Shown here one piece after another: positions 22,670 through 25,564 of a stretch of DNA of 64,000 bases. Under the pieces are notes generated by a model that saw nothing but the letters and a program-made list of their open reading frames with translations, made no database searches and was not told the origin of the DNA. The position numbers and the translations under genes are program-made. The stretch comes from Gammaproteobacteria bacterium (GTDB lineage Bacteria; Pseudomonadota; Gammaproteobacteria; UBA4575), in assembly GCA_011523795.1 (NCBI GenBank), contig WTFY01000002.1, forward strand, positions 186,001 to 250,000, read 5' to 3'. The number at the start of each line of letters is the position of its first letter. Position 1 is the first letter of the stretch.

Positions 22670-23992
<1,323 letters not shown>

Positions 23993-23996
23993 GCCA

Positions 23997-24293
23997 TTGA
24001 GGACACTCGTAATTTTCATGGCCCTGTTGCTGCTGCTGATGCAGTACAAGCTCTGGTTCGGTGAAGGAAGTTTCCGCGAGGGGCTGGAGTTGAGCCGCAC
24101 GGTTGCCGAGCAGGAACTCAAGAACGACCTGGCCAGCCAACGCAACGATGTCCTCGCTGCAGAAGTAGAGGAACTGAAAACCGGACTTGAATCCGTAGAG
24201 GAACGTGCAAGAAGCGAGCTGGGGATGGTCAAGAAAAACGAGACTTTCATCCAGATTCTGGAGAGCCGACCTGAAGATAACGACAGAGAATGA
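23997..24293 (+). CDS. ftsB: Cell division protein FtsB
   Basis: FtsB is a small bitopic inner-membrane protein of the FtsQLB divisome complex. The 98-residue product has one N-terminal membrane helix (about residues 4-16) ending in the conserved QYKLWFGEGS. A periplasmic coiled coil follows (about 25-70) and then SELGMVKKNETFIQI. The open frame runs back into eno, but TTG 23997 gives 22 residues up to and including WFG, exactly as in the E. coli protein, so TTG is favoured over ATG 24018, which would cut the membrane helix. It starts four bases after the eno stop. Its TGA overlaps an ATG at 24290 that looks like the intended ispD start. Confidence 0.9.
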   Translation: MRTLVIFMALLLLLMQYKLWFGEGSFREGLELSRTVAEQELKNDLASQRNDVLAAEVEELKTGLESVEERARSELGMVKKNETFIQILESRPEDNDRE

Positions 24294-25014
24294 TCGCTGC
24301 CAGCAAAACTGCTGGGCCATCGTTTGTGCCGCAGGGTCGGGTCTGCGGATGGGAATGGATGTCCCCAAGCAATACCTCCCGCTGGGCGATGCCACTGTGC
24401 TGGAAGCAAGCCTCTCCTGTTTTCTGCATCACCCGCGGGTCACGGCTGTGGTGGTAGCCTTGCCGGCTTGTGATGAAAGGTGGTCTGGACTGAAGGTTTC
24501 ATCCGACCGGTGCATCCATGTCGCAGAAGGCGGGCCAAGCCGGGCGCAATCCGTTCTCAACGCGCTGGAGACGGTGCAGGGCATGGCTGGCGCAGACGAT
24601 TACGTGCTGATTCATGATGCAGCACGACCTTGCCTTGACTACTCGGACCTGGACCGCCTCATCCGTGAAGGGATTGCCGATGAGACCGGTGCAATCTTGG
24701 CCACACCCGTTTGCGACACGATCAAGCGGGTGCGATCGACCGGTGATTTCCGGGAAGTGGTCCAAACCGTAGACCGTTCCCGCCTGTGGAAGGCCCTGAC
24801 CCCGCAGATGTTTCGGGTCCGTGTACTCGATGAAGCCTTGCGTTCCTGCCTCCGGGGCAGCCTGGCCGTGACCGATGATGCCTCGGCAGTCGAGGCGATC
24901 GGACATCGTGTAAAGATCGTCGAGGGGCGAAGTGACAATATCAAAATAACCCGGCAGGAAGATATCCGGCTGGCGGAATCGATAATGCGGCATATCAGGA
25001 ACCGGCCCGGGTGA
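24205..25014 (+). CDS. ispD: 2-C-Methyl-D-erythritol 4-phosphate cytidylyltransferase (start abnormal)
   Basis: IspD couples MEP with CTP to CDP-ME in the MEP pathway. The core is intact: WAIVCAAGSGLRMG (nucleotide binding), VPKQYLPLG, EGGPSRAQSVLNAL, VLIHDAARPCL, LWKALTPQMFR, TDDASAVEAIG and DNIKITRQED. The start is the problem. The only in-frame standard start is GTG 24205, which adds about 36 unconserved residues and overlaps ftsB by 89 bases. An ATG at 24290, overlapping the ftsB stop as ATGA, is one frame off. One additional A in the AAAA run at 24305-24308 would join it to the core, giving an ordinary IspD N-terminus. The annotated start should be treated as provisional; the protein identity is secure. 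Confidence 0.88.
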   Translation: MQEASWGWSRKTRLSSRFWRADLKITTENDRCQQNCWAIVCAAGSGLRMGMDVPKQYLPLGDATVLEASLSCFLHHPRVTAVVVALPACDERWSGLKVSSDRCIHVAEGGPSRAQSVLNALETVQGMAGADDYVLIHDAARPCLDYSDLDRLIREGIADETGAILATPVCDTIKRVRSTGDFREVVQTVDRSRLWKALTPQMFRVRVLDEALRSCLRGSLAVTDDASAVEAIGHRVKIVEGRSDNIKITRQEDIRLAESIMRHIRNRPG

Positions 25015-25069: not shown

Positions 25070-25564
25070 ATGATGACTGTGAGAGTGGGTTTTGGCTATG
25101 ACACGCATGGCTTTTGCGAGGGTGATCATATTGTGATAGGCGGGGAAAGAATCCAGTTCTCCCATGGCATCGACGCACATTCGGATGGAGATGTACTGCT
25201 GCATGCGATTTGCGATGCCGTGCTGGGTGCTGCGGGACTGGGTGATATCGGCCAGCATTTCCCGGACAGCCAAAGCAGGTACCGGGACGTGGAGAGTACG
25301 CGCCTGCTTGAGGATGTGATGCAAAAGATAGAAGACAGGTATTGGGTCGGGAATGTAGACTGTACCGTCGTGCTGGAACGGCCCAAGCTGGCAAGATATA
25401 TCGATGCCATGAAATCGAACATCGGCAGGATTTTGAAAATTTCGGCAAGTCAGGTCAATCTCAAGGCCACGACCAGTGAGGGCATGGGTTTCATCGGCCG
25501 AGGCGAAGGCGTGGCCGCATTCGCGGTGGTGCTGCTGCAACAGCATTCGCCGGCCGGTTCCTGA
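25070..25564 (+). CDS. ispF: 2-C-Methyl-D-erythritol 2,4-cyclodiphosphate synthase
   Basis: IspF cyclises CDP-ME 2-phosphate to MEcPP with release of CMP. The 164-residue product has the metal-binding RVGFGYDTHGF (Asp/His) near the N-terminus. It also has the signature SHGIDAHSDGDVLLHAICDAVLGAAGLGDIG in its usual place (quoted here in full as pattern, key residues His and Asp of HSDGDV), then HFPDS and TTSEGMGFIGRGEG at the C-terminus. The start is ATG 25070, with a second in-frame ATG at 25073. It follows ispD by 55 bases. Confidence 0.97.
   Translation: MMTVRVGFGYDTHGFCEGDHIVIGGERIQFSHGIDAHSDGDVLLHAICDAVLGAAGLGDIGQHFPDSQSRYRDVESTRLLEDVMQKIEDRYWVGNVDCTVVLERPKLARYIDAMKSNIGRILKISASQVNLKATTSEGMGFIGRGEGVAAFAVVLLQQHSPAGS

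Follow-up and report, generated by a model that had tools for sequence, protein, structure and literature searches.

The ftsB-ispD-ispF locus

The window (the whole stretch of 64,000 nucleotides that was analysed) belongs to contig C4 of G000, a binned genome of an uncultured bacterium comprising 22 contigs and 2.07 Mb. Within it the genes eno, ftsB, ispD and ispF follow one another (Table 1), the first being the frame that ends at position 23992, which, from its sequence, we take to be eno. The FtsB frame read from 24018 matches NCBIfam NF002058 (FtsB) with 101.3 bits against a cut-off of 101, and ispF matches TIGR00151 (200.7 bits, cut-off 116.45). Translation of ftsB probably begins at TTG 23997, seven codons ahead of ATG 24018, the first ATG near it. 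The TTG position is kept in six of nine loci examined, which are all six genomes of two genera; among the other three, G011 has GTG and the anchor motif was not found in two. Both members of the overlapping pair, ftsB and ispD, seemingly have weak starts.

Table 1. Features of the ftsB-ispD-ispF region (positions in the window)
Feature	Position	Strand	Remarks
ftsB	23997-24293	+	Likelier start TTG 23997; stop TGA 24291-24293; last codons GAA TGA (24288-24293)
GTG, rival start of ispD	24205-24207	+	Sole upstream standard start in the IspD frame; AGAGG 3 nt away
20-nt stretch identical in the window and G002	24246-24265	+	Identity includes FtsB third codon positions; just upstream of CTG 24271
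GGAGA, putative Shine-Dalgarno sequence for CTG 24271	24260-24264	+	Spacing 6 nt; -6.4 kcal/mol; same letters in G002
CTG, proposed start of ispD inside ftsB	24271-24273	+	Putative start
ATA ACG, near-cognate codons in the IspD frame	24277-24282	+	ACA CCG in G002
ATGA, out-of-frame ATG (24290-24292) over the ftsB stop	24290-24293	+	Fortuitous; absent in 4 of 4 congeners
Hairpin CCAGCA-AAAC-TGCTGG	24300-24315	+	AAAA run (24305-24308) at the end of the stem and in the loop
ispD as proposed	24271-25014	+	247 codons from CTG; stop TGA 25012-25014
ispF	25070-25564	+	Next gene

IspD matches TIGR00453 over its full length (226.1 bits, cut-off 181.3; profile positions 1-219 of 219) and also matches PF01128. 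The AAG...R loop and the KQY and HDAARP motifs, which we take to form the active-site region, are present in the window protein, and A42-G44, R48, K55-Y57 and H137-P142 are invariant in 17 aligned IspD rows, the window included. A structure model of the long form of the protein has pLDDT of at least 90 in 190 of 269 residues and is confident from about residue 36. Compared with G002, a separate assembly that is the nearest relative and whose IspD is 71% identical, dN is 0.20 and dS 1.33. The enzyme looks intact and under purifying selection.

The gene is present in a single copy in G000. Apart from ispD and ispF at the locus, ispE was the MEP pathway gene looked for; it was found in five of the six genomes of the two genera, G000 included, and not in G001. 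Mevalonate kinase gave no match in any of these six genomes. From this combination ispD is expected to matter.

Reading phase of ftsB and ispD among relatives

An ispD gene was found in 33 of 38 genomes, that of the window included. In the family it was present in 18 of 19 genomes (again counting the window's own), five of them in the genus, and the order-level search covered the same 19 genomes. Viral contigs yielded 12 candidate stretches with no relative among them. The family comparison thus comprised 18 loci, all read in gene orientation.

In all five genomes of the genus, the window included, and in G008 of a neighbouring genus (g5), the ftsB stop is in frame 2 to IspD. It lies at -22 from the Trp codon of the IspD core in the window and in G002, at -16 in G004, G003 and G001 and at -28 in G008, distances that differ by multiples of three. 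Since its close relatives share this phase, the window has lost no base in comparison with them. Elsewhere in the family the stop is in frame 1 in four of four loci of genus g4, the single g6 locus, two of three g2 loci and one of four g3 loci, and a true ATGA overlap is found in all four g4 loci and in two of the three from g2. Frame 2 recurs in the remaining g2 locus and in two of those from g3; in the last g3 locus the stop is in frame 0 and lies further away. To judge from these loci, the phase between the ftsB stop and IspD shifts between genera over long times.

The sequence-only reading had noted, correctly, that ATG 24290 overlaps the ftsB TGA and is in the wrong frame for IspD, and had proposed that one A had been lost from the AAAA run, possibly by a homopolymer sequencing error, from a gene starting at that ATG. 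Other genera of the family do have the ATGA overlap, but no gap interrupts the alignment of the window with G002 across the A-run (CAG CAA AAC TGC TGG against CAG CAG TGT TGC TGG), five other genomes share the phase, and the four congeners lack the ATG (AATAAC in G002, CAGTGATC in G003 and G001, GAATAATC in G004), so that a lost base, whether through sequencing error or recent mutation, is the least credible of the explanations and barely deserves consideration. One of the checks that had been suggested, comparison with the nearest relatives, shows a base count no different from theirs.

Absence of a nearby start codon

The conserved core CWAIVCAAGSG of IspD begins with TGC 24310 and TGG 24313. 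Direct reading confirmed the positions given earlier for the core (about 24313), the A-run and GTG 24205, which lies inside ftsB. This GTG is the only standard start codon (ATG, GTG or TTG) that the IspD frame offers from its upstream stop, TAG 24196-24198, to the core, and the first one within ispD itself is ATG 24349, past the AAGSG loop. In the window genome and in G002 alike, the 24 codons ahead of the core contain no standard start. The earlier statement that ispD has no normal start therefore holds for the neighbourhood of the core, but not for the frame as a whole, as GTG 24205 is itself a standard start.

How unusual this is was assessed from open frames on the window contig (1115) and on one long contig of G002 (1047). 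They gave 621 reciprocal best pairs, reduced to 250 orthologue pairs once overlapping shadows were removed. In 234 of the 250, both members have an aligned ATG, GTG or TTG; the region considered ran from where the alignment begins to 25 columns beyond its first conserved stretch. Each of the 16 pairs without a shared aligned standard start was inspected individually, and Pfam was run on seven of the 15 other than ispD. Thirteen have, in each genome, a standard start no more than about 15 codons from the conserved N-terminus, or else one in common ahead of the domain, and two are frames of doubtful status (one with no Pfam hit, the other not put to Pfam). Of the 16, ispD alone is both supported by a family match and lacking a start close by in either genome. 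A coarser criterion, which asks for a standard start no further downstream than the first conserved column, is failed in the window genome by 99 of the 250 pairs, presumably because that column can precede the real start.

The sister species do have a standard codon. Inside ftsB, TTG is found at -27 from the Trp codon in G001, G003 and G004 and at -36 in G008; in each of these four it is the only ATG, GTG or TTG between a TAG that closes the frame a little upstream and the core. At the position that matches the congeners' TTG in its distance to the ftsB stop, the window has ACG and G002 has CCG. The closing TAG reads TGG in both the window and G002, leaving the IspD frame open further upstream. 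There, the nearest standard codons are GTG at -108 in the window and ATG at -75 and -99 in G002, at positions that do not align. In a tree of ispD (17 rows), G001, G003 and G004 form a clade, and a clade of the window and G002 was not resolved.

Initiation signals in the genus

The 16S rRNA model RF00177 had no match in any of the six genomes (G000, G001, G002, G003, G004 and G008), the gene having perhaps been lost in binning. Shine-Dalgarno energies were therefore calculated against a generic anti-Shine-Dalgarno sequence. Energies of -4 kcal/mol or below were found at 70 of 231 starts and at 128 of 500 internal sites, which is scarcely any separation. A stricter motif count gave 30 of 176 starts, compared with seven of 176 for the same width further upstream and 75 of 1000 internal sites. 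With motifs so sparse and energies separating so weakly, a sequence such as GGAGA weighs little.

Of the 176 conserved starts on contig C4, 48% have C at -1 and 36% have it at -2, as raw percentages without control for composition, and few have Shine-Dalgarno motifs. Shared starts, roughly counted, are more often TTG-TTG (26) than GTG-GTG (17).

A relaxed initiator tRNA was considered and set aside. The anticodon arm of the initiator tRNA, searched for with a single query sequence, is matched exactly in all five genomes of the genus, and this canonical arm gives no suggestion of relaxed start selection. The only hit in G008 has three mismatches and may be another tRNA.

Candidate starts of ispD

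Our tentative account, to which we give a probability somewhat short of even, is that no base is missing and that ispD starts at a CTG shared with G002 (24271), inside ftsB, aided by GGAGA and coupled to ftsB translation. In the lineage of the window the start of ispD would thus be placed within the 3' end of ftsB, a position from which ribosomes that finish ftsB can re-start on ispD. Where the sister species have TTG, the window and G002 have ACG and CCG, and initiation would occur instead at CTG 24271 (fMet-KITTENDRCQQNC-WAIV...), with help from GGAGA, which lies six bases ahead of it, and from the ribosomes engaged on ftsB. These ribosomes may keep the stretch accessible and re-initiate at the CTG, so that IspD would be made at a low level linked to that of FtsB. 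Ranked on sequence evidence, CTG 24271 would come first, GTG 24205 second and ATA or ACG third.

CTG 24271, at -42, is the only CTG, ATT, ATC or ATA codon in frame ahead of the core that is common to the window and G002; ACG was added to this near-cognate comparison within 60 nt only. Counting the start, there are 14 codons to the Trp codon from CTG, 12 from ATA, 11 from ACG and 36 from GTG 24205, compared with 5 to 12 in 15 other aligned relatives, whose starts were chosen by the analyst. On leader length, CTG is near the range of the relatives and ATA and ACG fit slightly better.

Codon conservation in ftsB also bears on the position. Among FtsB codons with identical residues in the window and G002, 10 of 12 are identical from -67 to -25, a part that covers the CTG and the codons directly ahead of it, compared with 24 of 58 earlier (Fisher P = 0.011, with the boundary picked after inspection). 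Gene tails conserved to this degree number 11 of 187, and ftsB is possibly one of them. As background for the 20-nt identical stretch, of 23192 six-codon windows in which the residues agree, 771 agree in every codon as well. The CTG itself derives from the Pro-Glu codons of FtsB (CCT GAA), and FtsB may therefore account for its occurrence in both genomes. CUG is in addition a poor start, which counts against CTG 24271. Figures quoted in PMC11497404 put it at 0.024% of bacterial start codons, with 0.86% of the output of AUG, and the switches to CUG counted by Belinky et al. (2017, PMC5622118) are one from 2468 ancestral UUG starts, one from 5080 GUG starts and two from 61358 AUG starts.

Initiation at GTG 24205 in the window (in G002, at ATG -99 or ATG -75), which would add to IspD a long N-terminus out of frame with ftsB, is rather unlikely, even though it would use standard codons and the change from TAG to TGG in both genomes leaves the upstream frame open for it. 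ATG -99 of G002 is preceded by GAGGAGC at 9 nt (-6.4 kcal/mol), and FtsB codon conservation split at GTG 24205 instead gives 16 of 23 against 18 of 47 (P = 0.021). Against this, the upstream starts sit at different places in the two genomes, the position of GTG 24205 not being a start codon in G002, and the 3-nt spacing of AGAGG is short. Codon identity is ordinary between -106 and -70 (six of 11), and the distance to the Trp codon exceeds that of all the aligned relatives. Disorder is predicted for residues 1-31 of the long form (pLDDT < 50), which alone would not exclude it. GTG 24205 would probably be the choice of a gene caller.

It is more doubtful still that ispD starts at ATA 24277 or ACG 24280, at or close to the position of the sister species' TTG, with ribosomes supplied through coupling. 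ACG 24280 lies 11 nt before the ftsB stop, exactly like the TTG of G001, G003 and G004, and both codons fall within the range of leader lengths of the relatives. G002, however, reads ACA and CCG at these codons and would need another start. In Shine-Dalgarno context, ATA has GGAGAG at 11 nt (-6.4 kcal/mol) and ACG a weak match (-2.7).

It is very improbable that ribosomes move +1 on reaching the ftsB stop, assisted by the hairpin 6 nt beyond it, and produce an FtsB-IspD fusion. IspD is in the +1 frame to FtsB at the stop in all six genomes of the two genera, and the stem CCAGCA/TGCTGG is also present in G002, but the stop codon itself varies, and we know of no slippery codon that would fit ahead of it (GAA TGA or GAA TAA). 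The hairpin has z scores of -1.11 in the window and -1.35 in G002, and G003 and G004 have no such stem. Among shuffled sequences, 20 of 200 (window) and 17 of 200 (G002) fold as well, which is not significant, and for a 90-nt stretch the count is 11 of 200. Thus no significant conserved 3' structure beside a slippery sequence, as in programmed frameshifting, was found at the ftsB stop. There is very little chance that the window species and G002 make IspD solely as a low-level FtsB-IspD fusion with no start of its own; if they did, isoprenoid synthesis would be tied to a division protein.

In G002 the stem of this hairpin encloses another loop, and G008 has a 5-bp version. An unrelated, stronger hairpin lies at the ispD start of a g3 relative (L010:2173-2220, minus strand; z -2.11, nine of 200 shuffles as good). 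A frameshift from ATG 24290 through AAA AC was also rejected, as no slippery heptamer was seen by eye and the four congeners have no such ATG.

As an alternative to a sequencing error, the sequence-only reading had offered unusual initiation or frameshifting. Unusual initiation fares well in outline, because ispD would start inside ftsB and CTG 24271 is the best candidate. Frameshifting does not, having nothing but the conserved phase and the non-significant hairpin in its favour.

Comparison with known systems

The order ftsB-ispD-ispF is known from Gammaproteobacteria. The window has the same order and the same enzymes, and differs in the out-of-frame overlap and in a weak or non-standard start of ispD. 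Among the papers searched, none treats ispD, ftsB and the start codon together.

Translational coupling is common among overlapping co-directional genes, and it was strict in 13 of the 14 cases tested by Huber et al. (2019, PMC6728339). In that paper on termination-reinitiation, the abstract puts the emphasis on ATGA and TGATG overlaps, and the survey included overlaps of any length. Compared with those pairs, ispD appears to start further inside the upstream gene and at a codon other than ATG, GTG or TTG; the overlap itself is observed, and the coupling is what we infer from it.

The proposed start also resembles bacterial CUG starts as described in PMC5622118 and PMC11497404. CTG would serve where relatives have a standard codon, and weak starts are there said to tend toward stronger Shine-Dalgarno motifs. 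As with CUG genes, no standard start was found near the conserved N-terminus of IspD in the window genome or in G002. The starts in those two sources switch in place, whereas CTG 24271 lies 9 nt upstream of the TTG position of the sister species.

Conclusions

The start of ispD in this lineage is a real but modest curiosity. What looked like a missing start in this binned genome is characteristic of the lineage rather than a fault of assembly. Automatic annotation would probably assign IspD a doubtful N-terminus here. Two species seem to rely, for one of their isoprenoid-pathway enzymes, on a start that lies within a different gene and is very weak and probably not AUG.
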